64,000 nt of DNA, from contig JAMLGT010000009.1 of NCBI GenBank assembly GCA_023957755.1, positions 1-64,000 on the forward strand, in the 5' to 3' direction. The notes beneath the pieces were generated by a model, which was not told where the DNA came from, did no database searches, and worked only from the letters and a program-made list of their open reading frames with translations. The number at the start of each line of letters is the position of its first letter. Position 1 is the first letter of the stretch. Source of the stretch: Chitinophagaceae bacterium (GTDB taxonomy: Bacteria > Bacteroidota > Bacteroidia > Chitinophagales > Chitinophagaceae). Positions 48,612 to 63,773 of this stretch are shown here, in pieces. A program made the position numbers and the translations under genes.

Positions 48612-48654
48612 CTTTTTTATATTTTCTTCCTGATCTTTTTCAGGAATGGATGAA

Positions 48655-49722
48655 TTAGTTATTGTTCCTGGTGCTAAAAGTTACGTTCATAGAATTTGTA
48701 CCCGAAGGAATGCTGGTAGGTGCCGTTAAACTGTAAATTGTTGGTATAGCCGGAATGCCTGAAAGTTTGTAAGGATCGGTAGCGCCGAATGCGCCACAAT
48801 CAGGCGTTACCACTGCACCTACTGTAACGCCGGCAGCAATGGCAGGAGAACCTGCTTTTAAAACCATGCGTGAATCTAAACTGCCGGTAGTGCCACCTAC
48901 ATAGACTGTGGACATATCTACATTTATCAGGTTGTTAACCGCAGATGGTGGCAGCGTTTGGTTTTGCTGAAACAAATTGTTTTTGATATTACAATTAGTG
49001 AAATTTACCGGTGTATTATTGTTTTGAGCAAAAATATTATTAGCTACATAGCAATTGGCAATGGTAGTTACAGTGCCTATACCAGATGATGCAAAGCTAT
49101 TATTGCGAAAAATATTATTAGATCCACTTAGGTTAGCTAGATAGGGGGACGCATAGAAACTTGTAAAAATATTATTCTCACAAGTGAAATCAGTTAATGA
49201 CCCGGAGGAGCAGTTTAGAGTACTTAGTACGAAACATTTACGAATGGTAAGCCCGCTATTACTTGCATTTGGTACATAAAAGCTTTCTGCTATTTCGCAT
49301 TTCTCAAAAGTGATATTATTCCACGCATTATCTCCGTAGATTGTACCGCCGGAAAAAACAATGCCTATAAACTTGCAGCCACTGCTACCTGTAAGCAGAT
49401 TGATGCTGCGTATAACAGAACTATATTTATTATACTGCAATCCCACGTTGGCAGGATAGTTTACATCAGCAGGGTCTAAAAAGTAACCGGTGCCAATAAT
49501 GGTAAGTTGCTTACTGATGCTTGCATCATTATAGCTGGTAGCGCTGCCTTCAATATAAAGTGTATCGCCGTTTACTACCAATGCACTATATACTGCTGCA
49601 TCAAAAGCGGAGAAATCAGCACTGGCGCCAGCATTATTATTTACCCGCCATACTTTAGCGCTGGCATTGAAATATGCAAATTGAAGAAGTGTGATGACCA
49701 GAAGGGAATAGTACTTTTTCAT
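48655..49722 (-). CDS. Secreted right-handed beta-helix protein
   Basis: A 355-aa protein with a signal peptide (cleavage near NASA). The repeated hydrophobic-Asn pattern (NITFEKCEIAES, LTIRKCFVLST, TDFTCENNIFTS, NNIFRNNSFASS, CYVANNIFAQNN, CNIKNNLFQQN) is that of a parallel beta-helix of the pectate-lyase superfamily. No catalytic residues were recognised, and no T9SS domain is present; the C terminus is Thr/Ser-rich and ends abruptly. It is the first gene of a two-gene unit and has an ATCAT-N8-ATGAT element in its promoter. The ligand is unknown. Confidence 0.82.
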   Translation of the reverse strand: MKKYYSLLVITLLQFAYFNASAKVWRVNNNAGASADFSAFDAAVYSALVVNGDTLYIEGSATSYNDASISKQLTIIGTGYFLDPADVNYPANVGLQYNKYSSVIRSINLLTGSSGCKFIGIVFSGGTIYGDNAWNNITFEKCEIAESFYVPNASNSGLTIRKCFVLSTLNCSSGSLTDFTCENNIFTSFYASPYLANLSGSNNIFRNNSFASSGIGTVTTIANCYVANNIFAQNNNTPVNFTNCNIKNNLFQQNQTLPPSAVNNLINVDMSTVYVGGTTGSLDSRMVLKAGSPAIAAGVTVGAVVTPDCGAFGATDPYKLSGIPAIPTIYSLTAPTSIPSGTNSMNVTFSTRNNN

Positions 49723-49753
49723 ATCAGTGGTATTTTATTGTTTAAGTGTGATG

Positions 49754-49801
49754 TAAAAATAGAGGAGAGGGTAGGCGGCAACAATCATTAAAAAAGATGA
49801 T
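49754..49801 (-). promoter_or_regulatory. Shared-element promoter, copy 1 (beta-helix gene)
   Basis: Inverted repeat ATCAT-N8-ATGAT (49784-49801, core of six A), exactly 22 bp, then minus-strand -7 box TATTTTTA (49761-49754). The 22 bp correspond to a -33 box plus an 18-nt spacer; the -33 position reads TGTT, a poor box, so activation by a bound protein is plausible. The rest of the gap up to the plus-strand gene at 50060 contains a run of C and no recognised signal apart from a TATCTTCA -7-like box at about 50033. Confidence 0.6.
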
Positions 49802-50059
49802 TTTTTTGCGGTTAGGCATTAAGCAGAAAGAAAAAGATAGAGATGATTGTGCTATACAGGTGATCCGGTTCCTAAGTTCTGACTGTTCGGCTTTTTTGTG
49901 TCAGGATCCTTAGTAATTCCTATTCCCCCCCCTTTCCATGCCTACAATTGGATTCCTATTAAATAATTCTGCTCCTTAATAAAATATTTTTGAATAGATT
50001 ACGATTAATAGTAATGTAAATTGAGGAGCTAATTATCTTCACTCATTTAAATGGAATTT

Positions 50060-52051
50060 ATGAGAAAAAATATTTGTGCTGTTTTAATCCTTTTGCCTCT
50101 TATTTTGGCAACTCAGGCATCCGGTCAATCCAGACCCGTGAATAGAAAAATACAGCCTGTATCAGGGCAGGTTATTAAGGATACAGTTCCGGATAATACA
50201 AGTTTGATAAATCCAAAATTAAATAAGAAGGTGATTGAAGCAGCGGCCGCATCATATAATCAACCGAATTTATTTTTGATTAAAGAAAAACCTGCCGAAC
50301 CTGAAGTATATCCTCGTGTACCTCCTGTATTTTATTATATAGATGATGAAACAATCTATGAAGCAAGCAAAGTAAAAGACCCGAATTGGCAATACAATTT
50401 TATCTGGACCAATATACCCGCTGCTGCCACACAGGCAAGGTTTGAAATATCATCATTGCCGTTTCCGCCATTAGATGCAAACTTTAAAGGAGCAAAAGAA
50501 ACAAGGATTATTCAAAAATTAAGAACAAGGGTTATTGGAAAAAAACAAGCAGATACGGTACGGTTTAATATCAGCTTTACAGACCCGATATTAAGGTTAA
50601 ACCCCAAATTATTTGATGTAAGTAAAACGAAACAGGAAGGCAATCAGTCAGGCAATGCTATAAAAAGCCAGGAGCGCTCTGTGGTAAAACAGTTAAACAG
50701 AACCGGCAAGGTAAATACAAGCAAGGTATCCAATCAGAATTTCACTTTGAGCGCCAGCCCATTAAAATTACTTTCAGACCAGTCAGGTTATGGGTACTAT
50801 TTTGTACGACTCATTGCATTGGATGCAGCAGGCAATCCTGTGGGGCGAATTGGAAATACCATCAAGATCATTCCGCATTTTTTAGAGCCATTCAAGCAGC
50901 CGGTTCCGAGCAGTGAAGATTCTTTGCAATCGGACTATGAAATTACAGCAATCAATTATGTGCCCATGCACGAACCGGAACAACAGTTTGAAAATTGTGT
51001 AGTAATAACCGGCTATAGCTCGCCGTCATTAATGCAGGCTGCATATCCTGTTGGTTCCACTATGTGTCCTTCGCCTCCTGAAAAACCCTCAGCTTTTGAA
51101 AAAGTATTCAGTACTGTAAGCTCAGCATTAAGTGCAGCTTCTTTAGCTACGAAAATTGTTATGGAAGGATCCGCTAAAGTTTTTAATGATACAAAAAATT
51201 CTGTGAAAGTAATGATTGGAAAATACCTGTGCGACAATACGGGTGTAGATGTAGTAAAGGCAATGGATAACAATGGAGGTGTGGCTACTGCAGCCATAGA
51301 TGCAGGCTGTGTGGCTATTGCTGATACTACATTTGATGTGGCAATGTCATATTACGGTATGCCGCCCACTATTCCCAATTTTGATGAGATGTGCAAACTG
51401 GCAAAAGGCCAGGTGGTGGAACTTATGGTACAGAAAGCTTCAGAATATTCAGGTAAAACCTGCAATGAAACAAATAAGCAATCCATATTGCAGGCGTATG
51501 ATCAAATTGTAAATGAGAGCGTTAAAAAGAATATTCAAAGTGACGGTCTGTCTTTCAAACCCGACCCAAGAGGACAATACCAAATGCCTTATGTGGAAAT
51601 TGAAATTTCTCGTAAACGGCAAACACAAAAAGGAGCTCCTATTATAACAAACCTTTATTTTACTCCCCAGGTGGAAAAACATTTTAAAGATTTGTATGAT
51701 AAAGACAACAGGAAAAACTATTCTGTAGATATTAAAACCGATAAACTTTATCAGCAGGTCATGATGCCCATACCCTATTTGAAAAATGTTGGAGACAAAA
51801 TAAAATTGATAGTAGTGCTCACACCCAAGCGTTCTTATTTTTCATACCGCTGTCCCAATGGCGCCATTGATGGTATTGAAAATTATCAACAACATTGTGA
51901 AGGATTGAATGTAATGCAGGGAGAAATCGGCGATCCAAGATTCAGCCTTGGATATTCCGCTATGGTGGACAATGCAACGATTGCCATAAAACCCGAAGGA
52001 AAGATTGCCTTAGCGCCGGGTGTGCAAACCAGGTTTGTGCATCATCAGTAA
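50060..52051 (+). CDS. Secreted protein of unknown function
   Basis: A 663-aa protein. It starts at the ATG that begins a signal peptide (residues 1-23, ends ASGQ); an in-frame ATG lies 9 bp upstream. After a Pro/Lys-rich N-terminal part there is a beta-rich region containing YNFIWTNIPAAATQARFEIS, a Lys/Gln-rich linker, and a C-terminal half with several scattered Cys (MCPSPPEKP, YLCDNTGVD, GCVAIADT, EMCKLAKG, GKTCNET, YRCPNG, QHCEGL) that could form disulfides. I recognise no family. It is divergent from the beta-helix operon, without the shared promoter element. Confidence 0.72.
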   Translation: MRKNICAVLILLPLILATQASGQSRPVNRKIQPVSGQVIKDTVPDNTSLINPKLNKKVIEAAAASYNQPNLFLIKEKPAEPEVYPRVPPVFYYIDDETIYEASKVKDPNWQYNFIWTNIPAAATQARFEISSLPFPPLDANFKGAKETRIIQKLRTRVIGKKQADTVRFNISFTDPILRLNPKLFDVSKTKQEGNQSGNAIKSQERSVVKQLNRTGKVNTSKVSNQNFTLSASPLKLLSDQSGYGYYFVRLIALDAAGNPVGRIGNTIKIIPHFLEPFKQPVPSSEDSLQSDYEITAINYVPMHEPEQQFENCVVITGYSSPSLMQAAYPVGSTMCPSPPEKPSAFEKVFSTVSSALSAASLATKIVMEGSAKVFNDTKNSVKVMIGKYLCDNTGVDVVKAMDNNGGVATAAIDAGCVAIADTTFDVAMSYYGMPPTIPNFDEMCKLAKGQVVELMVQKASEYSGKTCNETNKQSILQAYDQIVNESVKKNIQSDGLSFKPDPRGQYQMPYVEIEISRKRQTQKGAPIITNLYFTPQVEKHFKDLYDKDNRKNYSVDIKTDKLYQQVMMPIPYLKNVGDKIKLIVVLTPKRSYFSYRCPNGAIDGIENYQQHCEGLNVMQGEIGDPRFSLGYSAMVDNATIAIKPEGKIALAPGVQTRFVHHQ

Positions 52052-52155
52052 TCACCGGGTAGAATATTATTTTTTTGATACTGTGTTGCTAATTAACTTC
52101 ATAGTGAATCTAATTACTTTCGGGTTCTGATAGTAATACTTCAATTTTAGTGTTC

Positions 52156-53370
52156 ATGAAAATTCTGAAATATATATTTGTTATTCTTATTTCAGGAAAT
52201 ACTATTCTCTGCTTTTCCCAGTCTTCCCTAAACAAAGATGAACTCATTGCCGATGCTGAGAAATACAGGACCACTATTTCCACACGACATAAAAATCCTT
52301 TTACGAAAATTTCCAGGGAGCAATTCAATCAAAAAATTGATTCCCTGATTGCTGTAGCTCCCCAATTGAGTAAGGAAAAATTTATTGTAGAGTTATTTAA
52401 AATCAACTCACAAATAGAAGACGAACACACCATTTTATTTCCGGATAATGAAATGGAATTGCCTTTTAAATTTGAATTATTTGATGAGGGGATGACAATA
52501 GTGGCTTCCGACAGTGCAAACCAGTCCTTTTTATTGAACCGGATTGTGTCTATAAATAATATTCCCTGGAGCCGGATAGATTCATTGTATAGAACATTAA
52601 TCAAAAGAGACAATCCCTCATATTTCAAATTTTTTGAAGCTTATTATTTCAACAATGTTGAATTGCTGAAAGGGCTGGATATTGTCAATAATACCAGCGG
52701 TATTCCGTTTCAGTTTATATCTCCCACCGGGGACACTATTAATGTGGCTATTAATGCTATTCGTAAAGTACCAAATGAAACCTGGATTTACGCCAAGCCA
52801 TACAAAAACCTTTTAGCCTACACTAAAAAGAACAACTACTGGTATCAATATGATGAAAATATCAAAGCTCTGTATTTTAATTACCGGCATTGTAGTGAAG
52901 ACGAAAATGAATCATTCAGAAGCTTTAATAAAAAACTGTTTGAAACTATTGAATTAGTTAAACCTGAAAAACTGATTCTGGATTTCAGGTTTAATGGCGG
53001 AGGGAATTCCAGGATTTTGAAACCTTTTATAGAAAAAATTCAAAAAACTTATTTGAATGATAGTGGCCGGTTTTTTATACTCATTGGCAGAAAAGTGATT
53101 TCTTCTGCTTTGATGAATGTCATTGATCTGAAAAAGACAACCCATGCGATTTTTATTGGAGAAGCAACTGGTGGCAATATCAATCATTTCGGAGAATTAA
53201 AATCTTTTGAACTCCCCAATTCAAAAATCAGAGTAACCTACTCAACAAAATTTTGGGAAAACTGGACTGGCCATGATGGTTCTTTTCATCCTGATTTTGA
53301 AACCGGCAATAAATTATCCGACTTTATCAATTCGTATGATAAAGCGCTTGAGACAGCTTTACAAAAATGA
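52156..53370 (+). CDS. S41-family-like serine protease, secreted
   Basis: A 404-aa protein with a signal peptide ending near CFSQ. The C-terminal half shows the S41 (tail-specific protease) core: LILDFRFNGGGNS, FILIGRKVISSALMNVIDL (Ser at the nucleophile position) and FIGEATGGNINHFGE. No PDZ domain is obvious. The N-terminal half is helical and is followed by a strand-rich segment. The start at the ATG 52156 is chosen over a GTG 6 bp upstream. The natural substrate is unknown, and the gene is not clearly in an operon. Confidence 0.75.
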   Translation: MKILKYIFVILISGNTILCFSQSSLNKDELIADAEKYRTTISTRHKNPFTKISREQFNQKIDSLIAVAPQLSKEKFIVELFKINSQIEDEHTILFPDNEMELPFKFELFDEGMTIVASDSANQSFLLNRIVSINNIPWSRIDSLYRTLIKRDNPSYFKFFEAYYFNNVELLKGLDIVNNTSGIPFQFISPTGDTINVAINAIRKVPNETWIYAKPYKNLLAYTKKNNYWYQYDENIKALYFNYRHCSEDENESFRSFNKKLFETIELVKPEKLILDFRFNGGGNSRILKPFIEKIQKTYLNDSGRFFILIGRKVISSALMNVIDLKKTTHAIFIGEATGGNINHFGELKSFELPNSKIRVTYSTKFWENWTGHDGSFHPDFETGNKLSDFINSYDKALETALQK

Positions 53371-53427
53371 TTGCTCCATTTCCCGGTTTAATCAATTGTG
53401 AAGTTGTTAGTTTATTAAACCTTAGAA

Positions 53428-53458
53428 CCTTCGTAGCTAATCCTTTTTGCTACGAAGG
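53428..53458. repeat. Inverted repeat and degenerate copy of the GCCAC repeat family
   Basis: Perfect 10-bp arms CCTTCGTAGC / GCTACGAAGG around an 11-nt T-rich loop. The wider stretch 53413-53510 (ACCTTCGTAG..., AAGACACCAGG, ACACAAAAGAAAAA...TAGTGAGCCTTAGT) is a decayed member of the repeat family found in the tandem array at 60.3 kb. It lies between two convergent genes and may end both transcripts. Confidence 0.55.
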
Positions 53459-53527
53459 CCAAAGACACCAGGCAACACAAAAGAAAAATTAGTGAGCCTT
53501 AGTACCTTGATTATATACTTCAAAAAA

Positions 53528-55690
53528 TCACTTAAAAAGATTTTGGATAGAAGGGCCTGCAGCATTGAATCCTCCATTTACACTGAGCTCTCCTGTGAAT
53601 AAATTCATGCCGGCATTTCCTCCTAAAGGGCCATTCACTTCAGCTCCTACTGTTCCTTTCACTATTAAATCTACCGGGTTCAAGTTGCCATCAAATTTAA
53701 TGGTGGTTTCTACCGATGCACCAATTGAACCTTTGATATTTTTAGTGATTTCAAATTCTTTATCCTTACCGGCTTTGGCTGATATACTATGGCCTGTAGT
53801 CGCCCAGGTTACTGGGTCTATACTACGTTCATACTTAAATGAACCGGCTTTAAAATCGGCATACACCGACCAGCCTTCGCAATTCATTTTTCCGCCTGTA
53901 ACCATCAGGTCAACTTCAAATTCTACTTCGCAATGTTCCCTTTCCCACTCATGTATTTTCCCTTTTTTATTATCTTCTTTTAAATACTCACCACAGGGCT
54001 TTGATAAACCTCCATCCACATAATATGGAAAGAATGAGCGAAAACCATTTAAGTCACGCAAGTATTGAACATAAAAACTATAGTTAACTGCTGTGGGATC
54101 TTGTATAGTTTGCATGCTAATGGTATTCCAGAAAAGATATTCCTGCAAACGTTGATTCAGCAGGTCTTCCATTTTGTGAATATATCCATTATTTATTTCA
54201 GCAGATTTGGATAACCATTTAGCCTGTCGCTCTTGTTTTAATGTACATAGTTCTTTTTCAATTTCAACTACACGGGCATTTTCAGCCGTTTTTCCTTCAC
54301 CAGCATCAATCGTTTTTAATTCTTTTTCTAATTTTTCAATCTTGGTATCATACGATGCTTTTAATGATTGTTTCAAATCATCTTCCGCTTTTTTTCTATT
54401 CACTGCTTCGGTTTTCATGCGGGCAAAATAAGATTTGCTGAATTGCGGGTTGTCAATACTGGCCATCATCAACGCTGCTTTTGGTAACATTGGATTGGTA
54501 AGCGATGATTTCATATCATTTATGGATTGAGTGAAACCAGGTTTACCTGCATTAGCCATTACTTGTTGCATCTGCGCCATTCGCTTATTTATATTTTCCA
54601 TTCCCTTAGCTTCATAATCTTTGTTTATAGTCTGTGCATCCTGTTCCGCTTTCATCACCGTAGCATCTAAGTTTTGAAAAAATGCATTGATATCCGGATA
54701 GGCGGCAACTGCTTCTTCATAAGATGCCGGAATGGCTGGAATAATAAAACGTTTTGTGATGCTGTGGTCTTTGTAAAATTGTTTGAAGTTATTGCGGATG
54801 GTCTCGGACATATCAACGCCGGGTGTAACCTGGTTCAATAAATTAATCATTTCGCTTGTAGCGCATCCATTCGCAATCGCTTTTTGCAGATAACCCCCGC
54901 AGAGTTTATTATTCCCCTGGCTTTTTGCAATGAGCGCCATGGAACGATATGCTTCTCCGTTTGTTGAATCCTTTGTAATAGAATTTTGCAGGAATGATTT
55001 TGCTTTATCTGTATAACCAAGACTAAGATATGCCTGGCCAATATTGTTGAGCAGGGTACCACTTTCGGGTAATGCTTTTTGTGCATATAATAAAAGTGGT
55101 AAGGACTTATTTGCATAACCAGACATCGTTAATAAGGCGCCCAGGTTATTGATAGAAAGATAATCATCGGGTGTAGTGATACAGGCATTGGTCAATAAAT
55201 ACAAGGCTTTATCCAATTCATTATGTGTCCAGAAAACCATTGCATATTGCCCGGTTTGTTTCCCTTGATTTAGTAAACTTTCTACCGCACTTTTATGGCC
55301 TGGTTCCATTTTCTTTGACAACTCAGCAAAAACAGGTTTTAAATAAGCCACTAATTTAGATTTATCCGTAGGTGTCGGTGGTATTGCCAATTTTGAAACA
55401 GCGGTTGGAATTTTATTAGGGTCACCTGTAGGCATCAGGACTAGTCCTGTAGGACCTGCTTGTGTATTATTATTTACCTGGTTGATAGCATTGTTCATTA
55501 TTTTATTTCCTCCGAACGCATTCATCATACTATCGTACATCTTTCTTGCTTCCGGGTTCATATTGGATAGTGTTTCATTTAGTTTTTTTTGCGCAGCCTC
55601 CAGGCTTTCTTTCTGTTCCTTGGTAGGCTTTTGCGCAAAGGCAGAAAATGTAAGCGCATTAAACAGCAATAACAGGTAAAACGATTTCAT
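53528..55690 (-). CDS. Secreted TPR-containing protein
   Basis: A 720-aa protein. Signal peptide ends FSAFAQ. Residues about 150-300 hold TPR units (DDYLSINNLGALLTMSGYANKSLPLLLYAQKAL, SGTLLNNIGQAYLSLGYTDKAKSFLQ, GEAYRSMALIAKSQGNN). A long coiled region follows (KAEDDLKQSLKASYDTKIEKLEKELKTID), and the C terminus is Gly-rich and beta-like. It should be periplasmic or surface located and bind other proteins. Its promoter carries the shared ATCAT-N8-ATGAT element. Confidence 0.78.
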   Translation of the reverse strand: MKSFYLLLLFNALTFSAFAQKPTKEQKESLEAAQKKLNETLSNMNPEARKMYDSMMNAFGGNKIMNNAINQVNNNTQAGPTGLVLMPTGDPNKIPTAVSKLAIPPTPTDKSKLVAYLKPVFAELSKKMEPGHKSAVESLLNQGKQTGQYAMVFWTHNELDKALYLLTNACITTPDDYLSINNLGALLTMSGYANKSLPLLLYAQKALPESGTLLNNIGQAYLSLGYTDKAKSFLQNSITKDSTNGEAYRSMALIAKSQGNNKLCGGYLQKAIANGCATSEMINLLNQVTPGVDMSETIRNNFKQFYKDHSITKRFIIPAIPASYEEAVAAYPDINAFFQNLDATVMKAEQDAQTINKDYEAKGMENINKRMAQMQQVMANAGKPGFTQSINDMKSSLTNPMLPKAALMMASIDNPQFSKSYFARMKTEAVNRKKAEDDLKQSLKASYDTKIEKLEKELKTIDAGEGKTAENARVVEIEKELCTLKQERQAKWLSKSAEINNGYIHKMEDLLNQRLQEYLFWNTISMQTIQDPTAVNYSFYVQYLRDLNGFRSFFPYYVDGGLSKPCGEYLKEDNKKGKIHEWEREHCEVEFEVDLMVTGGKMNCEGWSVYADFKAGSFKYERSIDPVTWATTGHSISAKAGKDKEFEITKNIKGSIGASVETTIKFDGNLNPVDLIVKGTVGAEVNGPLGGNAGMNLFTGELSVNGGFNAAGPSIQNLFK

Positions 55691-55708
55691 CTTTTAATAT
55701 TTATGAGA

Positions 55709-55756
55709 TAAAAGTAATTGGATGGTTAAAAAGAAGGTATCATTAAAAAAGATGAT
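55709..55756 (-). promoter_or_regulatory. Shared-element promoter, copy 2 (TPR protein gene)
   Basis: ATCAT-TAAAAAAG-ATGAT (55739-55756), 22 bp, then minus-strand -7 box TACTTTTA (55716-55709), 19 bp before the start codon at 55690. The -33 position reads ACCT. The inverted repeat sequence is identical to copies 1 and 3. Confidence 0.6.
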
Positions 55757-55765
55757 TTTCTGATG

Positions 55766-55783
55766 GCCACAGATGCACAGATG
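55766..55783 (+). repeat. GCCACAGATGCACAGATG repeat, left copy
   Basis: An 18-bp repeat also found at 56286, 56378 and 60305 (plus) and inverted at 56428. Shorter or decayed copies lie at 56319 and 56450. Two copies flank the GxxExxY gene directly. Placement beside promoters and nuclease-like genes suggests a mobile or recombinogenic element. Confidence 0.7.
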
Positions 55784-55880
55784 CTGGTATTGGTATTTAA
55801 TTTAACTAATAGCGAACGAGTGTATCTTAGGCAAATGTATTTATGACCAATTTTTATCTTAACAATTAAAACATAAACTT

Positions 55881-56258
55881 ATGGAAACATATTTTCCCTT
55901 TAAAGAAGAAACGTATCAGATTCTTGGCATTTGTATGGAGGTGCATAATTACCTTGGAGCAGGGTTTCTGGAAGTTGTTTATAAGGACGCATTGGAAATT
56001 GAATTTAAAAATGCCGGAATTCATTTTGAAAGAGAGAAAGAATATACCGTTAATTATAAAGGGAACATTTTGAAACATAAATTTTTTGCAGACTTTATTG
56101 TGTTTGACAAAATAATTCTTGAGGTAAAAGCTGTAAAAACATTAGCTGATGAGCATATCGCACAAACAATCAACTATCTGAAAGTATCGGATGAAAAAAT
56201 TGCACTTCTTGTAAACTTTAATGAGCCTAAGCTTAATTATAAACGATTGATTTTGTAA
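55881..56258 (+). CDS. GxxExxY family protein (PD-(D/E)XK nuclease-like)
   Basis: A 125-aa protein of the GxxExxY family: the naming motif is GFLEVVY, and KFFADFIVFDKIILEVKAVK supplies the D...ExK pattern of the PD-(D/E)XK fold. Family members are widespread in Bacteroidota and Planctomycetota intergenic regions and have no proven role. The gene is flanked by 18-bp GCCACAGATG repeats about 520 bp apart and followed by an inverted pair of the same repeats. This fits a small mobile or selfish unit, but that is inference. It is transcribed opposite to its neighbours. Confidence 0.85.
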   Translation: METYFPFKEETYQILGICMEVHNYLGAGFLEVVYKDALEIEFKNAGIHFEREKEYTVNYKGNILKHKFFADFIVFDKIILEVKAVKTLADEHIAQTINYLKVSDEKIALLVNFNEPKLNYKRLIL

Positions 56259-56285
56259 GAAATCTCATTTACGTAAATAAGGTTT

Positions 56286-56462
56286 GCCACAGATGCACAG
56301 ATTAGGTGTAAGAAAAATGCCGCAGATGCCCAGATTTAAGATGAAATAACATGCCACTGATAAGTAGAAACAAAAATGCCACAGATGCACAGATGATTTT
56401 TTTGAGAAAATTTTAAACAAATAACATATCTGTGCATCTGTGGCAAAAGTTGCATCTGTGGC
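56286..56462. repeat. Cluster of GCCACAGATG repeats, direct and inverted
   Basis: Copies at 56286-56302 (plus), 56319-56337 (decayed, plus), 56378-56395 (plus), 56428-56444 (inverted) and 56450-56462 (inverted, short). The 56378 and 56428 copies form a hairpin with 17-bp arms and an A/T-rich loop of about 32 nt. The cluster lies just after the GxxExxY gene and ends 14 bp before the next gene's stop, where it may also stop transcription. Confidence 0.75.
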
Positions 56463-56475
56463 AAATAAAGTTTTA

Positions 56476-57690
56476 TCAGTTCACTATCTTTCTCAAACTT
56501 TCAAAATCAAAATGCTCTGTAAAATTTTTAAACAAACGCAGTGACGAAGGCAGCGTAACGTACCGAAATGCAACGGTAATGATTTGCGGAGCTGCCGCTC
56601 CTTTTGGGTTGGCTTGAAAATAATCAGGGTTATACTTATACAAAGGCAAGCTCTTAGCTTCTTTATCATAAAACTTCCAGAAACGGTTATAGTTTGTTTG
56701 TTCATCCAGGTGTGCATTATATCGCTTTTCGTTATCTGATGAAGGATTGACAATTGCCTGCTTAGAGAGCCATTCTTCATTTTGCCCACTTAAAGTTTTT
56801 TGAACAATGGCAATTTTATCTGCTACATCTTTTTCCCACTTGCTATAATATTTTATACTGTTATCATGGTCAGCCTTCAGTTGTGCTATTAGTTTTGTAA
56901 AATAGATTTTTTCTCTGTTATAGTATTCCAGCAGGCTTTCCAGATATTCTTTACGGCTAACCGGTAATAGAACAGGGATATCTTTTTTCTTAATAAACCA
57001 ATACCGGGTGATAAAATTGTTGCGGTTATTAGGCTTAATATCTTTATCTGCCACGTCCTGAAAAAAGTTGTCTCCTGTATTAATAGCAGTAAGCAGTTGT
57101 TGATTAGTGCAGTATATGTAATTAAACAAATCAATCATTTTGGCATTAACATCTGCAGGTTTGTGATTCTGCCAATCAACATATTGTAACCCAAAATCAT
57201 AGCTGCCAAAGCTGCTGCCAAAAGGTCTTGATAAAAAATAATCCAGGGTGGTTAGCAGAAGTTGATTTACATAGATACGTAATACCGTACTATATTCATC
57301 ATTGCGTTTCTTTTTTCCGTTGATACAAAAAAACTCATGTAAGGCAGCCTGAAAATTATATTGACCCAGCTTTGTAATTGCCAGGCAATCGTAGCCATTG
57401 CTGGAATAGGTATTTTCCCAATTGCCACCTGTAAGATTAAAACCGGTATGACTTTGTTGTTCTATCTTCTCAACATTTTCCAATGTTTTTTTGTCCAGTG
57501 CCTTGTCGGCTGCTGTTTTCAGATTTATAAAGTATTCTGCTCTGGCAGCAGGCCAGGGATATTGTGCTGCCGTAAGATATTTACCGGGAGTGGCATCCAG
57601 GTCAGCATTGGTTTTACAGTCTTGTGCTTTTACAGATGCTGAAAGCAATATCAAAAGGGTTATATTCAGAACTTGAAATATTGTTTTCAT
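56476..57690 (-). CDS. Secreted protein of unknown function, paralogue A
   Basis: A 404-aa protein. The start at 57690 is chosen because it opens a signal peptide ending VKAQ; the frame runs back to a TTG at 57741. It shares several blocks with the next gene upstream: IPVLLPVSRKEYLESLLEYY, NEEWLSKQAIV and, at the C terminus, NPDYFQANPK...FRYVTLP...FDFESLRKIV. The centre is helical and Lys/Glu-rich, probably coiled. I recognise no family. The pair probably arose by duplication. A partial shared promoter element (AAAAAAGATGAT half) lies in the 98-bp gap upstream. Confidence 0.75.
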   Translation of the reverse strand: MKTIFQVLNITLLILLSASVKAQDCKTNADLDATPGKYLTAAQYPWPAARAEYFINLKTAADKALDKKTLENVEKIEQQSHTGFNLTGGNWENTYSSNGYDCLAITKLGQYNFQAALHEFFCINGKKKRNDEYSTVLRIYVNQLLLTTLDYFLSRPFGSSFGSYDFGLQYVDWQNHKPADVNAKMIDLFNYIYCTNQQLLTAINTGDNFFQDVADKDIKPNNRNNFITRYWFIKKKDIPVLLPVSRKEYLESLLEYYNREKIYFTKLIAQLKADHDNSIKYYSKWEKDVADKIAIVQKTLSGQNEEWLSKQAIVNPSSDNEKRYNAHLDEQTNYNRFWKFYDKEAKSLPLYKYNPDYFQANPKGAAAPQIITVAFRYVTLPSSLRLFKNFTEHFDFESLRKIVN

Positions 57691-57761
57691 ATAAACTTCT
57701 ATTTGGATTTTAGTATATAACCGCTTTGTATCGTAAATCAAAATAGTTGTACAAACTGGCG

Positions 57762-57779
57762 TAAAATAAAAAAGATGAT
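57762..57779 (-). promoter_or_regulatory. Partial copy of the shared promoter element
   Basis: TAAAAT followed by AAAAAAGATGAT keeps the A core and one half-site of the ATCAT-N8-ATGAT element; the other half is lost. It lies 72 bp before the start codon at 57690, in the gap between the two paralogues. The 22-bp spacing to a -7 box is not clear here, so function is doubtful. Confidence 0.3.
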
Positions 57780-57788
57780 TTTTATTTA

Positions 57789-59090
57789 CTACTGTAACAT
57801 CTTTCTTAACGCTTCCAAATCAAAATTCTTTTCAAAATTCTCAAACAGGCGCTTTGAAAAACCTTTGTCGGCGCTGATTTCATACCGAAACTGCACTTCC
57901 ATAAAAATCGGTTTTGCCGGCTGGTTTAAGCTTTGTTTGAAATATTCCGGGTTCAGCACATACAGCGCAGACCTGTATTCTTCTTCCTGGTCATAAAAGT
58001 TTCCTAACTCTTTTAACCGATCGTATGCATCGTAAGTACTGCCATGGTTTCCCACTATGGCCTGCTTTTGCAGCCATTCTTCTTTTTGGTTGGCCAATAA
58101 CTGTTTTATTTTTTCTTTTTTAGCTTCGTATAATTTTGGATATGCCGCTTTATCAGCCTGTAAAATAGCCATCTGCTTTTTTGCATAATCAGCATTATTT
58201 CCGGCAAGCCCATTCATTTTCCTGTTCCAGTCGTATTCAAAATTTGCTTTTTCAATTTCAAGATAGTCCAGCATATCCTGCAAATACTGTTTGCGACTAA
58301 CAGGTATCAGCAACGGAATGCCGGGTTTGGTAATAAGATAATGCCGGTCTATCCATAAAGAAGACTTAGGGCCATTCTTGCCATACCTATCGCCACTTAT
58401 CCAGTTTTCGGTATATCCATTGCCGCTATTCAGTTTCAAAAAATCGTTGTGAGCGTCTTTATAGTTATTAGAACGGTTGTCTAATAGTATTCTTTCGGAA
58501 ATATACTTTGACACATTGACCGGATTTTTGCCTGAACCTTTAGCTTGTACATAATCACTTGGGATATTATATTGGATGGAGTTGGGATATTTTGAAATAT
58601 TAAAATTCCCTATTCCGATATCCAGTGGTGAAATGTTACCGGCCAGTGTTGGGTTTATTTTCACTCTTAAAACAGTTCTGTATTCATCTACTGTTTCTAC
58701 AACATTCAGTTTGGCAGGACATACATTTTGATACACAGCCAATTGATAACCGTAACCGGTATGATGAAAGCTGCCATTATCGCTGATGTCATTGCTGAAA
58801 CTTACCCTGGCTACGCAACCGGTGAGATTAAAATTTTTGCGACTCGCTTCTTCTAATTTTTCAATGGCAATCAGTTGATTGGTCATGTATGTTTTTTCCT
58901 GCGGAGAAGCTGCTTTTAAGCTAAACGCATATTCTGGATTGGTATGATTGGTGTATATACCAGGAATATTATCAGCTGTGCCATTACAGGGAACATTAGC
59001 CATAAGGTCCTTTTTTTGAGCAAATGTGGTTGTAATGCCTGTCAGCAGGGTAATTACTAAAAAACTGAAAGTGAAAAATTGTTTTTTCAT
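57789..59090 (-). CDS. Secreted protein of unknown function, paralogue B
   Basis: A 433-aa protein with a signal peptide ending TTFAQ. It matches paralogue A along most of its length: IPLLIPVSRKQYLQDMLDYL, QKEEWLQKQAIVGN and NPEYFKQSL...VQFRYEISADKGF...FDLEALRKML. A middle helical part carries KKQMAILQADKAAY. Two Cys near CVARVSF and VCPAK could pair. No known family was recognised. It precedes paralogue A on the minus strand by about 100 bp and follows a lipocalin-like gene, so all three may be one transcript. Confidence 0.75.
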   Translation of the reverse strand: MKKQFFTFSFLVITLLTGITTTFAQKKDLMANVPCNGTADNIPGIYTNHTNPEYAFSLKAASPQEKTYMTNQLIAIEKLEEASRKNFNLTGCVARVSFSNDISDNGSFHHTGYGYQLAVYQNVCPAKLNVVETVDEYRTVLRVKINPTLAGNISPLDIGIGNFNISKYPNSIQYNIPSDYVQAKGSGKNPVNVSKYISERILLDNRSNNYKDAHNDFLKLNSGNGYTENWISGDRYGKNGPKSSLWIDRHYLITKPGIPLLIPVSRKQYLQDMLDYLEIEKANFEYDWNRKMNGLAGNNADYAKKQMAILQADKAAYPKLYEAKKEKIKQLLANQKEEWLQKQAIVGNHGSTYDAYDRLKELGNFYDQEEEYRSALYVLNPEYFKQSLNQPAKPIFMEVQFRYEISADKGFSKRLFENFEKNFDLEALRKMLQ

Positions 59091-59213
59091 TGTATAAATG
59101 TATTTGTGTTATTCTATTAAAAGTTGGTGAATTCCTATATCGTTCCTTTTTATTATTACTTAAATTTTATTCATTAATTTTCTTTTTAGAATAAACGTAG
59201 TCAACAGTAACAG

Positions 59214-60230
59214 TTATTTTACACCAGGAGGAAAGTCTATATACTTAATATCACTTAATACATAGCTGAAATATTTATTTGTATAAGCGCCGTCCCTTTC
59301 TGTAGCTCCGCCGCTATCTAACCGTAGGATTGTTGCTACATCATCGTTATGAATATTGAACTGGTAGGTAGTCTTTTCTAATTTCCAGTTATTTTTTTTA
59401 ACCAGGCTGCCCCACTCTTGAGTATTATTGGTTTTCTTCCACTCCCCGGACATTCCTTTTGTTGGTGTCAATGTAAGTTTGTCGCCATTTACTGTCCATG
59501 TGCCGGTTTCGTTACCGTATAAAATATTGTCTATATGAACCGACCAGGTTTTAAAGCAATAAAAATAAGTGCCATCGCTTTTAAATGTGTATTCCTTTCT
59601 GAAATATCCTCCGCTATATAAAATAAAGTGATTCACAACACCATTGGTTTCTGCAGAATTTATTTTCCAAAGACCCACAATGGAAGTATGGTTTGTATTT
59701 GCATTGGCATTTGTTTCGGTTTCACTATTTGTTTGAGTATTTGCTTCACTTACTGAATTGGCATCTAAATCTATATTATCTATCAAAGATTGATAAATTT
59801 TCATATAGGGCATAGCCGTTGAATTGCACAATACAGCTACGCAAACCCGGTTATTGGAAAATACGGTTAGCATGGAAGCCACATTGGCGCCATTGTATTG
59901 CCATATAGCGGAACCGCTCATTACAGTCCAGCCGTCAGAAGTTTTGGGTGCTGTTTTTTCAGGATCTGAAATAGTTTTTCCCTGTGCTACCAATTCATTC
60001 CAGTCCTTATCAAAATCAGTTTGAATATCACCTTCGCTGTTGCGATGCTGATAAATGGCAATTTGCGCCCAGGATGCACCATCTATCCTGGAGTAAGATA
60101 TGTTGCCATTACCCTGTTGCATCGTCCAGTCCGCAGGAGGAGTGTAGGTAACGATATCAAATGTTTCTTTTTGAGCAAAGAGGTTTGCTGTAAACATCGT
60201 TAATACAATTGCAAGGATGATTGATTTCAT
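59214..60230 (-). CDS. Secreted protein with lipocalin-like C-terminal domain
   Basis: A 338-aa protein. Signal peptide ends NLFAQ. The first domain (about residues 25-155) begins FDIVTYTPPADWTMQQGNGNISY and is a short alpha/beta unit; an Asn/Thr/Glu-rich linker follows. The last ~150 residues look like a lipocalin-type barrel: IVGLWKINSAET, YTFKSDGTYFYCF, GTWTVNGDKLTLTPT and WKLEKTTYQFN. The promoter holds the shared inverted repeat. The role is unknown; proteins of this kind are often exported lipid or ligand binders. Confidence 0.77.
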   Translation of the reverse strand: MKSIILAIVLTMFTANLFAQKETFDIVTYTPPADWTMQQGNGNISYSRIDGASWAQIAIYQHRNSEGDIQTDFDKDWNELVAQGKTISDPEKTAPKTSDGWTVMSGSAIWQYNGANVASMLTVFSNNRVCVAVLCNSTAMPYMKIYQSLIDNIDLDANSVSEANTQTNSETETNANANTNHTSIVGLWKINSAETNGVVNHFILYSGGYFRKEYTFKSDGTYFYCFKTWSVHIDNILYGNETGTWTVNGDKLTLTPTKGMSGEWKKTNNTQEWGSLVKKNNWKLEKTTYQFNIHNDDVATILRLDSGGATERDGAYTNKYFSYVLSDIKYIDFPPGVK

Positions 60231-60247
60231 AATTAAAACTTATGATG

Positions 60248-60295
60248 TAAAAATAACTGCAATGGCTTTGGTGGGGTATCATTAAAAAAGATGAT
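60248..60295 (-). promoter_or_regulatory. Shared-element promoter, copy 3 (lipocalin-like gene)
   Basis: ATCAT-TAAAAAAG-ATGAT (60278-60295), 22 bp, minus-strand -7 box TATTTTTA (60255-60248), 17 bp before the start codon at 60230. The -33 position reads ACCC. The geometry is identical to copies 1 and 2. Confidence 0.6.
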
Positions 60296-60304
60296 TTTAA
60301 ATCT

Positions 60305-60322
60305 GCCACAGATGCACAGATG
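60305..60322 (+). repeat. GCCACAGATGCACAGATG repeat, distal copy
   Basis: An exact copy of the 18-bp repeat that flanks the GxxExxY gene 4 kb away. It lies between promoter copy 3 and the 92-bp tandem array. Confidence 0.7.
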
Positions 60323-60334
60323 ATTTTTGGTTAT

Positions 60335-60968
60335 ACCACAGAGGCTCAAAGTCCCAAAGCCGCACAAAGAAAAAACATAGTGAACCTTCGTGCCTCGGTG
60401 TCTTGGTGGCTACTTCTATTTTACTTGCCACAAAGGCTCAAAGTCCCAAAGCCGCACAAAGAAAAAGCTTAGTGAACCTTCGTGCCTTCGGGTCTTGGTG
60501 GCTACTTCTATTTTACTTGCCACAAAGGCTCAAAGTCCCAAAGCCGCACAAAGAAAAAACTTAGTGAACCTTCGTGCCTTCGGGTCTTGGTGGCTACTTC
60601 TGTTTTTCTTGCCACAGAGGCTCAAAGTCGCAAAGCTGCACAAAGAAAAAACTTAGTGAATCTTCGTGCCTTCGTGTCTTGGTGGCTACTTCTATTTTAC
60701 TTGCCACAGAGGCTCAAAGTCGCAAAGCTGCACAAAGAAAAAACTTAGTGAACCTTCGTGCCTCGGTGTCTAGGTGGCTACTTCTATTTTACTTGCCACA
60801 AAGGCTCAAAGACTCAATTCCGATAGCTATCGGGACACAAATAAAAATCTTAGTGAACCTTTGTGCCTCGGTGTCTTCGTGGCTACTTCTGTTTTTCTTG
60901 CCACAAAGGCGATAAGACAAGAAGTGGCACAAAGGATAACCTTAAGAACCTTAGTGCCTTCGCGGCCC
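60335..60968. repeat. Tandem array of seven GCCAC...GTGGC units (92-bp period)
   Basis: Unit starts fall at 60335, 60427, 60519, 60611, 60703, 60795 and 60900: five 92-bp units, one of 105 bp and a decayed last one. Each begins GCCACAAAGGCTCAAAG and ends CTTCGTGCC...GTGGC, which is close to the reverse complement of the start, so every unit can fold into one long hairpin. The sixth unit is interrupted by CCGATAGCTATCGG. The frames that run through the array are by-products of the repeats, not genes. The array fills most of the 822-bp gap before the kinase gene. Confidence 0.9.
60820..60833. repeat. CCGATAGCTATCGG palindrome
   Basis: A perfect 14-bp palindrome inside the sixth 92-bp unit. A shorter version, TGATAGCTATCA, lies at 62996-63007 just after the kinase gene. 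This small palindrome type is frequent in Bacteroidota intergenic DNA. Confidence 0.6.
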
Positions 60969-60977
60969 ATTAAAAAA

Positions 60978-61025
60978 ATCATTAAAAAGTATGAGTTCAA
61001 CCTGTATGAATTCATCTTTTATTTG
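60978..61025 (+). promoter_or_regulatory. Shared-element promoter, degenerate copy 4 (histidine kinase gene)
   Basis: ATCAT-TAAAAAGT-ATGAG (60978-60995) resembles the ATCAT-N8-ATGAT element with one changed half-site base. Exactly 22 bp further a -7-like box TTTATTTG (61018-61025) precedes the kinase start at 61053 by 27 bp. The same spacing as in the three minus-strand copies suggests autoregulation of the two-component system. Confidence 0.45.
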
Positions 61026-61052
61026 TAATCAAGAAAGAAGTATTTTGGTATA

Positions 61053-62990
61053 ATGAAAAAAATTGCAGTCATCATTATTTTGGGCTTTTTTACGAACTGT
61101 GCTCTTTGCCAGCATTTAAATAAAGACAGTTTGCAAAACCTGTTGCATTCTACAAAAGAGGATACTGCTAAAATCAGGCTGTATTACAAACTGGCAATCG
61201 AGTTGTCAAAAGAAGATTTGCCGGCTGCTGAGAAGTATTGTCAATTGGTCGGGACACTCAGCCGAAAAATAAATTATAAGCAGGGAATTAGAGATTATTA
61301 CTCTCAACTTTCCAATATACTTAGTCTAAAAGGAGAGTTTGATGAGGCGCTAAAAAATGATCTTGAGGCGGTAGATTTTGCCAAGTCCTCCAAAGATTCC
61401 ATTGAATTGGCACGCACTCTTTTTAATGTTGCCATAACCTATCAGAGGATGGAGGACATAGAAAATTCGGTTGCCTATACTGAGCAGGCAAGGGACATCA
61501 TTCTTCGTAATCATAGTCATTTGTATGAAGGAGAAATTTACAATTTGCTGCAAAGGCTTTATTTTTTCATGCATCAGTATAGCAGGGCTGTGCAAAACGG
61601 GAGAATCGCTGTTGCAGCTTTAGAAAAAGCTGATGATAATAACAATTTGCAATATGCCTATAATAATCTGGGGTTGAATTATATTATGATCCCGAAATAT
61701 GACTCAGCTAAATATTTTTTGCGTAAGGCATCTGAAATAGCTGAGTCAAGTGGTGAGACTATGATTCAAATAACAACCAAACTGAACTTTGCCCTTATAT
61801 CGTTGAAGCTACAGCAAACAGACAGTGTGAAAATATATGCTCAAAATGCATTGGCACTCTCCAGGAAATTAGATGCCCCGGAATTTGTAGGACTTGCTCA
61901 ATATGGTCTTGCCTATTATTATTTGCAGAAAAAGGAATATGCTTACGCTCAAAGGTATGCAGACTCTGTAATTGCTATTGCTATGAAGTATAATATGCGG
62001 GATCTGAAACAAAAAATTTATGTGGTTTTATCCGGTCTTAATTATGCTTTACAAGACGTTTCAAAAGGTATTTATTATTTCAATCAATATGAACTCTTGA
62101 GTGACAGTATATTAAATGAGTCCATCGCACGCAATACCATACAAAGCGAAAAAAAGTATGAGACACAGCGAAAAGAAACTCAGATACTACAACAACAAGC
62201 TGCACTAAAACAAAAAGCGTTAGTTAATTATTTTTTGATTGCCGGCATAGCGGCACTCATATTAGTCTCATTGCTTGGGTATCGCAATTACAGAAACCGT
62301 CAACGCCTGCAACAGGCAAAAATTGATGAACTAGAAACTGAAAAACATCTCACAGCAACCGAAGCAGTCCTCAAAGGTGAAGAGCAGGAACGTACCCGCC
62401 TGGCCAAGGACCTGCACGATGGATTGGGTGGTATGCTCAGTGGCATTAAATATTCATTAAGCAATATGAAAGGAAACTTAATTATGACGCCTGATAATGC
62501 ACAGGCATTTGAGCGCAGCATGGATATGCTGGACAGCTCTATTAAAGAAATGCGCCGTGTGGCACATAACATGATGCCTGAAGTGCTGGTGAAGTATGGT
62601 CTGGATGCCGCGTTAAAGGAGTTTTGTGGTGAAATAAATCGAAGTGGGGTTATTCGCGCAAATTATCATTCTTTGGCATTGAATGAAGTAGCAATCGAAC
62701 AAACCACTTCTGTAACTGTTTACCGTATTGTACAGGAACTTGTCAATAATGTGATCAAACATGCCGCCGCCAGTAGTGTTATTGTGCAGGTACAATACTC
62801 GCAATCAGACAAATTATTAACAGTTACAGTGGAAGATGATGGAAAGGGGTTTGACATGGCTTCGCTGAAAGATGCCCACGGAATCGGTTGGAGTAACATT
62901 AAAAGCCGGGTTGACTTTTTGAAAGGTAAGATTGATGTGCAGACAGGTGAAGGAAAGGGAACATCGGTGTTGATAGAGATAGTAGTATAG
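61053..62990 (+). CDS. TPR-sensor histidine kinase (HisKA_3 type)
   Basis: A 645-aa membrane kinase. A signal peptide is followed by a periplasmic TPR array (about residues 30-370, e.g. ARTLFNVAITYQRMEDIENSV, YAYNNLGLNYIMIPKYDSA). A coiled segment, one membrane helix (ALVNYFLIAGIAALILVSLLGY) and a second short coil lead to HisKA_3 with the phosphorylated H455 (RLAKDLHDGLGGML) and an HATPase domain (VYRIVQELVNNVIKHA, VEDDGKGFD, GIGWSNI). It pairs with the NarL-type regulator downstream. The signal sensed is unknown. Confidence 0.93.
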   Translation: MKKIAVIIILGFFTNCALCQHLNKDSLQNLLHSTKEDTAKIRLYYKLAIELSKEDLPAAEKYCQLVGTLSRKINYKQGIRDYYSQLSNILSLKGEFDEALKNDLEAVDFAKSSKDSIELARTLFNVAITYQRMEDIENSVAYTEQARDIILRNHSHLYEGEIYNLLQRLYFFMHQYSRAVQNGRIAVAALEKADDNNNLQYAYNNLGLNYIMIPKYDSAKYFLRKASEIAESSGETMIQITTKLNFALISLKLQQTDSVKIYAQNALALSRKLDAPEFVGLAQYGLAYYYLQKKEYAYAQRYADSVIAIAMKYNMRDLKQKIYVVLSGLNYALQDVSKGIYYFNQYELLSDSILNESIARNTIQSEKKYETQRKETQILQQQAALKQKALVNYFLIAGIAALILVSLLGYRNYRNRQRLQQAKIDELETEKHLTATEAVLKGEEQERTRLAKDLHDGLGGMLSGIKYSLSNMKGNLIMTPDNAQAFERSMDMLDSSIKEMRRVAHNMMPEVLVKYGLDAALKEFCGEINRSGVIRANYHSLALNEVAIEQTTSVTVYRIVQELVNNVIKHAAASSVIVQVQYSQSDKLLTVTVEDDGKGFDMASLKDAHGIGWSNIKSRVDFLKGKIDVQTGEGKGTSVLIEIVV

Positions 62991-63048
62991 TGTCGTGATA
63001 GCTATCAGGATGGTGCCCTGGTGTCTTTGTGGGTCAACATTTTCTCTT

Positions 63049-63138
63049 GCCACTAAGGCGCTAAGACACGAAATGACACAAAGAAGAGCCTGGTGTGCCA
63101 AAAGTTGTCGGTGCTTTATGCACTGGTCTCTTCGTGGC
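63049..63138. repeat. Single GCCAC...GTGGC repeat between kinase and regulator genes
   Basis: GCCACTAAGGCGCTAAGACACGAAATG at the left end (first 17 bases match the unit start pattern) and TCTTCGTGGC at the right end give a diverged copy of the tandem-array unit. It separates the kinase from its regulator by 168 bp in total, so the two-component genes may not be tightly coupled. Confidence 0.6.
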
Positions 63139-63158
63139 TCAAACAAAAAGATTAAATA

Positions 63159-63773
63159 ATGAAAGCAAGCGTATTCATAGTGGATGATCACTACATGGTG
63201 ATTGAAGGTATCCGGTCTTTGCTTCAAAATGAGAAGGGTATAGACTGGATGGGGCATGCAACCAATGCAGCCTCATGCATGGCCTTTTTAAGGCAACAGC
63301 AGCCTGACGTCATCCTTATGGACATCAATCTGCCTGGAAAAAGCGGTATTGATTTATGTAAAGAAGTGATTGCCACATATCCTTCAGTATTCGTACTGGG
63401 CCTTAGTACCTTTAATCAGCAGGCATATATACGCAATATGCTTGACAATGGTGCATCAGGATATGTGTTGAAAAATGCTACCAAAGAAGAGCTCCTCGAA
63501 GCCATTGCTGTCGTTATGTCGGGAAAGACATACCTAAGCGATGAAGTGAGCACTTCTTTAAGTGATACAATGGGAAAAATACCCCCGATTACCAGGCGTG
63601 AGAAGGAAGTTTTGCTTTTAATAACAGAAGGCCTTACAAATATTGAAATTGCGGAAAAGCTGTTTGTGAGTGTTCCTACCGTTAATACACATCGGAAAAG
63701 TCTATTGGAAAAGTTAGAATCTAAGAATACGGCAATCCTAATTGGCAAAGCAATAAAGTTGGGTCTGGTTTAG
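63159..63773 (+). CDS. NarL/LuxR-family response regulator
   Basis: A 204-aa regulator. The receiver domain has VDDHYMV, the phosphorylation site D55 (VILMDINLPG), a conserved T/S at GLSTFNQ and the Lys in YVLKNATKEE. The LuxR helix-turn-helix (ITRREKEVLLLITEGLTNIEIAEKLFVSVPTVNTHRKSLLEKL) is at the C terminus. It is the partner of the HisKA_3 kinase just upstream. NarL-type regulators bind inverted repeats as dimers, which fits the ATCAT-N8-ATGAT element found nearby. No gene is visible in the 230 bp after it to the window end. Confidence 0.93.
   Translation: MKASVFIVDDHYMVIEGIRSLLQNEKGIDWMGHATNAASCMAFLRQQQPDVILMDINLPGKSGIDLCKEVIATYPSVFVLGLSTFNQQAYIRNMLDNGASGYVLKNATKEELLEAIAVVMSGKTYLSDEVSTSLSDTMGKIPPITRREKEVLLLITEGLTNIEIAEKLFVSVPTVNTHRKSLLEKLESKNTAILIGKAIKLGLV

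Follow-up and report, generated by a model that had tools for sequence, protein, structure and literature searches.

Pairs of a tetratricopeptide-repeat (TPR) sensor kinase of the HisKA_3 type and a NarL-type response regulator are common in environmental Bacteroidota, and, to our knowledge, few response-regulator operators are known in these organisms. When compared by way of working alone, the closest known kind of system is FimS/FimR of Porphyromonas gingivalis, in which a periplasmic TPR-repeat sensor kinase and a response regulator activate genes for exported surface proteins (PMC11053733, PMC1974823). FimR binds a target promoter directly and activates it, and this binding is independent of phosphorylation in vitro (PMC1974823). 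Two-component control is also tied to secretion in Bacteroidota by PorX/PorY-SigP (PMC4800418). That system acts on secretion components via an extracytoplasmic function (ECF) sigma factor. Among regulators of the NarL/FixJ type, DesR, VraR, DevR/DosR and NarL combine a receiver with a GerE domain, use dyad operators and read the major groove with a recognition helix (PMC9263151, PMC4082495). Here we describe an 18-bp palindrome, ATCATTAAAAAAGATGAT, in a 64,000-nucleotide stretch of a Chitinophagaceae bacterium (GenBank assembly GCA_023957755.1, contig JAMLGT010000009.1, positions 1 to 64,000; hereafter the window), where it lies in front of genes for exported proteins and of an adjacent kinase-regulator pair. 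The palindrome is very probably the docking site of that regulator, and we consider it highly probable that, acting from a position like that of a class II activator, the pair switches on its own operon and the exported-protein genes nearby.

The locus shares with FimS/FimR a TPR sensor kinase paired with a response regulator that, as proposed here, activates exported-protein genes. It differs in that FimR targets fimbrial genes, whereas the candidate targets here are several unrelated exported families together with the kinase's own promoter; no fimbrial family was found among the target proteins scanned with Pfam. It also has one 18-bp dyad at one spacing, whereas the available parts of the FimR papers give no operator palindrome or code. 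In contrast to PorX/PorY-SigP, the system is proposed to act on exported proteins that resemble cargo, through a NarL-type regulator with an operator of its own. Neither orientation of the 18-mer was found in the full text of open-licence PMC papers, and the matches listed from that literature include no description of this element or regulon; likewise, that text search for the 18-mer found no printed account, for NarL/FixJ-type regulators, of the ATCAT-N8-ATGAT dyad with an A-tract core and its Asn- and Asp-linked variants, described below.

The histidine kinase (61053-62990, plus strand) has an N-terminal TPR region (TPR_12, 3.9e-16) followed by HisKA_3 (5.7e-11) and HATPase_c (4.7e-13). By eye, its N-terminus is hydrophobic and another hydrophobic stretch precedes HisKA_3; the TPR region between them is a putative periplasmic domain. 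The NarL/FixJ-type regulator (63159-63773, plus strand) matches Response_reg (9.5e-25) and GerE (4.1e-16), both above cut-off, and its best matches among solved structures were DesR (6.8e-33), VraR (7.2e-31), DevR (4.3e-27) and NarL (4e-24). Its recognition helix reads TVNTHRKSL, with Asn176 and Ser181. The receiver aspartate in VILMD-INLPG is Asp55 by hand count, which we take to be the phospho-acceptor.

The element in the window and its promoter geometry

A pattern search of the window found the exact 18-mer at 49784-49801, 55739-55756 and 60278-60295. All three copies precede minus-strand genes and, read toward the gene, have the same layout of ATCATCTTTTTTAATGAT, 22 bp and a TAYTTTTA box, the boxes being TATTTTTA at 49754-49761, TACTTTTA at 55709-55716 and TATTTTTA at 60248-60255. 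A fourth copy, with three mismatches, lies on the plus strand at 60978-60995. It has the other core orientation, ATCATTAAAAAGTATGAG, followed after 22 bp by TTTATTTG (61018-61025), and the kinase ATG at 61053 lies 27 bp past this box; relatives carry ATCATTAAAAAAGATGA[TG] at this place. The sequence search thus bears out the initial annotation both on the three identical copies with their common spacing and on the degenerate copy before the kinase gene. These four were the only matches in the window at up to three mismatches, whereas shuffled sequences gave a mean of 0.23 and at most 3, with 0 of 100 reaching four.

In the bacterium's own genome (3,665,499 bases in 35 contigs), the exact 18-mer occurs only as the three window copies. 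At up to three mismatches there were 30 matches, comprising the four in the window and 26 elsewhere, whose surroundings, judged by eye without gene calling, were mostly coding-like. The search pattern originally suggested, ATCAT-N8-ATGAT, proved too loose, since the AAAAA core is conserved as well: in the window, these arms alone occur 9 times at up to one mismatch against 5.3 expected, a count that 8 of 100 shuffles reached, and genome-wide the pattern occurs at 16 places. We therefore rejected the arms as a defining motif and used the full 18-mer. What is distinctive is the combination of the entire 18-mer, A-tract core included, with the spacing and box, rather than the arms alone.

We regard it as extremely improbable that we are dealing with a dispersed repeat, a transposon-like one, or promoters copied along with duplicated genes. 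Two of the three exact copies do have a local repeat, CCACAGATGCACAGATG, on their outer side, and tandem repeats of 92 bp occupy about 60336-60914. Yet the genome holds only three exact copies, all of them in the window, so that the dispersed repeat named beforehand as a possible refutation was not found; the three genes come from different families, and the sequences separating element from box show no relation to one another. Moreover, CCACAGATGCACAGATG is absent at 49784, its five genome copies (up to two mismatches) all lie within the window, and the element occurs elsewhere, in other genomes, with no such repeat beside it.

Promoter positions were assigned from the mapped -7 box of Flavobacterium psychrophilum, at -12 to -5 (PMC9723704). 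On this scale, the dyad spans -52 to -35 with its centre at -43.5. The arrangement has the geometry of a class II activator promoter, with an element at a fixed distance that ends 22 bp before the box and abuts or overlaps the -33/-35 region. The -33 box had been described as poor, in agreement with the absence of a TTG-like element at 55739 and 60278; such an element (GATTG) occurs only at 49784. Neither kind of -7 box matches the consensus TAnnTTTG, the target box TAYTTTTA and the kinase box TTnnTTTG (TTTATTTG) each being one conserved letter off. We infer that such off-consensus boxes in both promoter classes fit activator-dependent promoters.

By the mechanism that we propose, a periplasmic signal would be sensed by the TPR domain of the kinase, as the analogy with FimS suggests (PMC11053733), and the kinase would phosphorylate the NarL-type regulator. 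A dimer of the regulator would bind the 18-bp dyad, ATCAT-(T)AAAAA(A)(G)-ATGAT, centred near -43.5 and beside or over the missing -33 element. The bound, phosphorylated dimer would then substitute for the -33 contact and recruit RNA polymerase in a class-II-like manner, giving positive autoregulation at the kinase-regulator operon and activation at the nearby exported-protein genes. The sites, their spacing and conservation, and their co-occurrence and helix covariation with the regulator are observations; binding, its dependence on phosphorylation, the activating sign, the signal and the roles of the exported proteins are inferred.

Distribution of the element and sites before kinase genes

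A regulator-based search yielded 80 loci. The identical 18-mer adjoins a homologous regulator in L053 (three copies), L055 (two), L057, L058 (two, plus a one-letter variant) and L061 (two), and signal-peptide-like starts lie directly behind two of the L058 sites. When the window and 51 loci (L053-L103) were searched for the composite of element and box at spacings of 21-23 bp and up to four mismatches, 19 of the 20 matches had a spacing of 22 bp; the lone match at 21 bp was poor, with four mismatches, and lay in coding sequence.

We then scanned 294 genomes of the family for the 18-mer, N22 and TANTTTTA with up to three mismatches. The composite was found in 34 genomes from 25 of 101 genera (reversed control, 0/294), and the element is thus conserved in related genomes. 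A regulator homologue at E<=1e-72 is present in 72 of the 294 genomes, and all 23 genomes with the composite at up to two mismatches are among these 72 (hypergeometric 4e-16). Individual genomes may hold many matches, such as G059 with 10 and G148 with 7. The initial annotation had called the regulon local; sites are indeed often beside the regulator, but not always, for in G248, G047 and G069 some lie on other contigs, and in G248 the regulator's contig differs from that of the sites. Beyond the family, the composite at up to two mismatches was found in 0 of 386 genomes of the class (reversed control, 1/395), while 2 of the 9 family genomes in the same draw, the bacterium's own included, had it.

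The genus itself is less informative. Among 20 same-genus genomes, exact copies occur only in the bacterium's own, and any match at up to one mismatch occurs in 4, those in relatives not being promoter-like by eye. A regulator homologue at E<=1e-40 is present in 6 of the 20, with a best foreign identity of 62%; because close homologues are so rare there, the genus is poorly suited to footprinting. Separately, Chitinophaga sp. E66 has a two-mismatch operator at position 7896 of its locus (ATCATGCTTTTTAATGAT, 22 bp, TACATTTG) that adjoins a regulator only about 45% identical, and the motif may therefore reach past close regulator homologues.

Sites before kinase genes were sought with a generic pattern that made no use of the window consensus in the arms: ATC, an A-rich core, GA, and a TTTG box at 21-23 bp. 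Such a site was found upstream of the kinase in 67 of 88 loci, against a mean of 0.75 and a maximum of 3 in dinucleotide shuffles and 2 in the reversed control. When the loci were divided by the variable residue of the regulator's recognition helix, the site was present in 29 of 33 Asn-type, 36 of 48 Asp-type and 2 of 7 Glu-type loci. The spacing was 22 bp in 20/29 Asn-type and 29/36 Asp-type sites, 21 bp in 8/29 and 6/36, and 23 bp in one of each.

These spacings bear on the sign of regulation. The regulator could bind the element as a repressor, the dyad near -43 hindering RNA polymerase until phosphorylation releases it; the element does abut the -33 region, and the activating sign is a prediction. 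We nevertheless consider repression unlikely. A repressible promoter should keep good -33 and -7 elements, and both deviate here; the rigid spacing, at 22 bp in nearly all composites and at 22 or 21 bp in nearly all Asn-type kinase promoters, suits an activator that touches polymerase; and FimR, the nearest studied analogue, activates (PMC1974823).

Letters of the probable operator and the recognition helix

Regulators with TV-N-THRK-S in the recognition helix pair with ATCATTAAAAAAGATGA[TG] before the kinase gene, and those with TV-D-THRK-N pair with ATCATGGAAAAAGGGGAG. Operator letter 6 is T in 27/29 Asn-type but 3/36 Asp-type sites, and letter 14 is A in 27/29 but 4/36. The nearest consensus is that of the site's own type for 28 of 29 Asn-type (ATCATTAAAAAAGATGAT) and 34 of 36 Asp-type (ATCATGGAAAAAGGGGAG) sites. 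Both paralogue types could be measured within one genome in G303, G144, G109 and G242, and each keeps its own operator; UBA1931 has a fifth pair (L055 and L056), in which the Asp-type site is a tie. In an alignment, DevR has TV-K-N and VraR has TV-K-T where the variable residue stands. In DosR, Lys182 and Asn183 contact bases (PMC4082495). By residue numbering, the variable residue presumably occupies the place of this Lys182/Asn183 site.

Asp-type loci have the same layout, with an exported-protein gene divergent from the kinase and, in front of it, a dyad (for example ATCCTGTTTTTAAGGGAT) that is separated by about 22 bp from CATTTTTA. The divergent genes start 16-41 nt on from the box (e.g. 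L228, L230, L232, L252, L255 and L269); single-dyad loci may show the kinase's own site, and hence we give no count. An Asp-type composite was found in 33 of the 294 family genomes (reversed control, 0), 29 of them in the regulator list, although the pattern was partly drawn from the same loci and the result is to that extent circular.

The same covariation bears on the explanation that the 18-mer and box form an alternative sigma promoter, or the site of some other regulator, with the two-component system merely nearby. TAYTTTTA does deviate from TAnnTTTG, and alternative sigma motifs occur in Bacteroidota (PMC9723704). In the kinase promoter, however, the dyad recurs in front of another box, TTnnTTTG; an 18-bp dyad with both arms conserved fits a dimer; and the operator letters follow the helix of this very regulator, even between paralogues in one genome. 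We judge this explanation quite unlikely, far less probable than activation and somewhat less probable than repression.

Several observations weigh against activation by the adjacent pair through this element. The kinase-promoter copy in the window is itself degenerate, and 21 of the 88 loci have no recognised kinase-promoter site, including 4 of the 33 Asn-type loci (L196, L206, L215 and L223); L215 and L223 are truncated contig ends, and L206 has sites with the box placed differently. The -33 place and the class-II geometry are taken from F. psychrophilum promoter positions (PMC9723704). Of the 72 regulator-bearing genomes, 49 lack the composite at up to two mismatches, which is largely explained by their having the other regulator type. 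Eleven genomes have three-mismatch matches only; the regulator is present in 6 and absent at the cut-off in 5 (G043, G081, G019, G093 and G028), where the matches look like chance or decayed sites. One of the 23 genomes, G197, has an Asp-type regulator, and the gene behind its match is not exported-looking. The covariation has exceptions in L226 (Asn with an Asp-like site), L249 (an odd site) and L056 (the tie). Finally, a tree of 98 regulators groups the Asn type into a single clade (33 rows, among them L213, which has Ser at that position; support 100/95), with L226 as an outlier. The covariation thus represents about one or two changes in evolution rather than 65 independent events, and a Fisher test overstates it. 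L226 (G102:C1:689280-693000) has TVNTHRKN, with the second Asn kept, lies outside the Asn clade and has the mixed sites ATCATGTAAAAAGAGGAT and ATCCTGTAAAAAGGGGAG; it may represent a step from one kind of operator to the other.

Taken with these points, the travelling of the element with the regulator, the kinase-promoter sites and the covariation with the helix support the original proposal of a HisKA_3/NarL pair that activates both its own gene and those of several exported proteins. Most likely this is an ordinary two-component activator with autoregulation, in which the operator code is unusually clear.

Predicted exported proteins behind the probable operators

Over the scanned loci there were 89 sites at a score of 4 or less and 62 with up to two mismatches and a TA box, or 61 without identical spacers. 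The distance from box to start is mostly 17-20 nt, and at the third position of the box, which the pattern did not constrain, 49 of the 61 have C or T. The spacer tends to start with T (0.61) and G (0.59), which, with the last operator base, places a TTG at the -33 place in many sites. A reading frame was present for 60 targets, of which 50 conform to a crude rule for signal peptides; by eye, 8 of the 10 that fail look exported or mis-started, and L151 and L155 do not. The recurrent target families have 12, 10, 8, 7, 6, 6 and 5 members, nearly all without a Pfam family, and the targets thus appear to be mostly exported proteins without assigned function. In L148 and L151 (genomes G114 and G253), the operator precedes a small protein of one family that has no signal peptide and a membrane-embedded look, although L148 passes the crude rule; not every target, then, is exported.

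In the window, all genes behind the exact copies are on the minus strand. Copy 1 precedes a likely operon whose first gene (48655-49722) encodes an exported protein with a signal-peptide-like N-terminus by eye. It had been labelled a beta-helix protein, a label that finds no backing in Pfam, where no family matches at cut-off. By eye, homologues of this protein (N-terminus AKVWRVNNNAGA) adjoin kinases of the Asp type in L073, L253, L257, L259 and L266, where their operators are of that type too. After a gap of 43 bp follows the likely second gene (47034-48611), whose product has a C-terminal type IX secretion sorting domain (Por_Secre_tail, 5.3e-08), as had been predicted; 249-bp internal direct repeats lie within it at 47679-48545. 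Copy 2 precedes a gene for an exported protein (53528-55690; target family of 10) that had been called a TPR protein; a TPR-like stretch is present, but the TPR matches are below cut-off. Copy 3 precedes a gene for an exported protein (59214-60230; target family of 12) whose lipocalin-like label agrees with its Lipocalin_4 match (3.8e-05). An AlphaFold model of this protein, built on a three-row alignment with a mean predicted local distance difference test score (pLDDT) of 40, was not used.

Two further exported-protein genes lie downstream of copy 3. The first (57789-59090) is possibly co-transcribed after 59214-60230, across a 123-bp gap; no operator of its own was seen in front of it, and by eye its product resembles the operator-bearing target L193_1302. 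The second (56476-57690; the start is an in-frame ATG of our choosing) is preceded at 57762-57782 by a half-preserved element, TAAAATAAAAAAGATGATTTT, possibly its decayed operator. DNA within it (56500-57624) is 69% identical to L199 13766-12639, which lies behind an exact operator at 12510.

The intergenic DNA around the operators has repeats of its own. Copies of CCACAGATGCACAGATG occur at 55765-56395 and 60304-60322, two of them right outside operator copies. The 92-bp tandem repeat, of the type CCACAAAGGCTCAAAG...CTTCGTGTCTTGGTGGCT, fills 60336-60914, between the operator of the lipocalin-like gene and the kinase promoter, and L053 has one unit of a similar kind between its two operators, at about 7820-7900.

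Two segments of the window are far more similar to L053 than their surroundings. Positions 47330-49806 are 93.5% identical to L053 5336-7812, where the counterpart of copy 1 lies at 7790, and positions 59206-60302 are 95.3% identical to L053 1233-2317, whereas elsewhere the kinase DNA is 77%, the regulator DNA 74% and clpC 73% identical. Both matches stop 5-7 bp outside the operator. The first cassette is directly divergent from the kinase in L053 but 11 kb off in the window. In the second, operator, box and leader are identical and about half of the 22-bp spacer differs, so that its history was not a simple single transfer. These two cassettes with their operators suggest that exported-protein genes travel as portable, operator-tagged units. 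Other high-identity pairs mostly involve close relatives (G059 and G148), and because the cassette case is a single genome pair, this reading remains a proposal. With somewhat less than even confidence, we extend it as follows: the operator would be a portable plug by which horizontally moving exported-protein cassettes join a resident, vertically inherited, autoregulated system, and a helix change after duplication (Asp to Asn and Asn to Ser) would have made a second, insulated operator standard with cassettes of its own.

A probable operator, its geometry and a candidate regulon were thus obtained from sequence, and recurrent exported families without assigned function gain a common regulatory context. 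Across the family, a pair of paralogous regulators has diverged in step with the operators, and both often occur within one cell. This natural experiment opens to direct test how NarL-type regulators recognise DNA, how duplicated regulators become insulated, and how horizontally acquired exported-protein genes are recruited.

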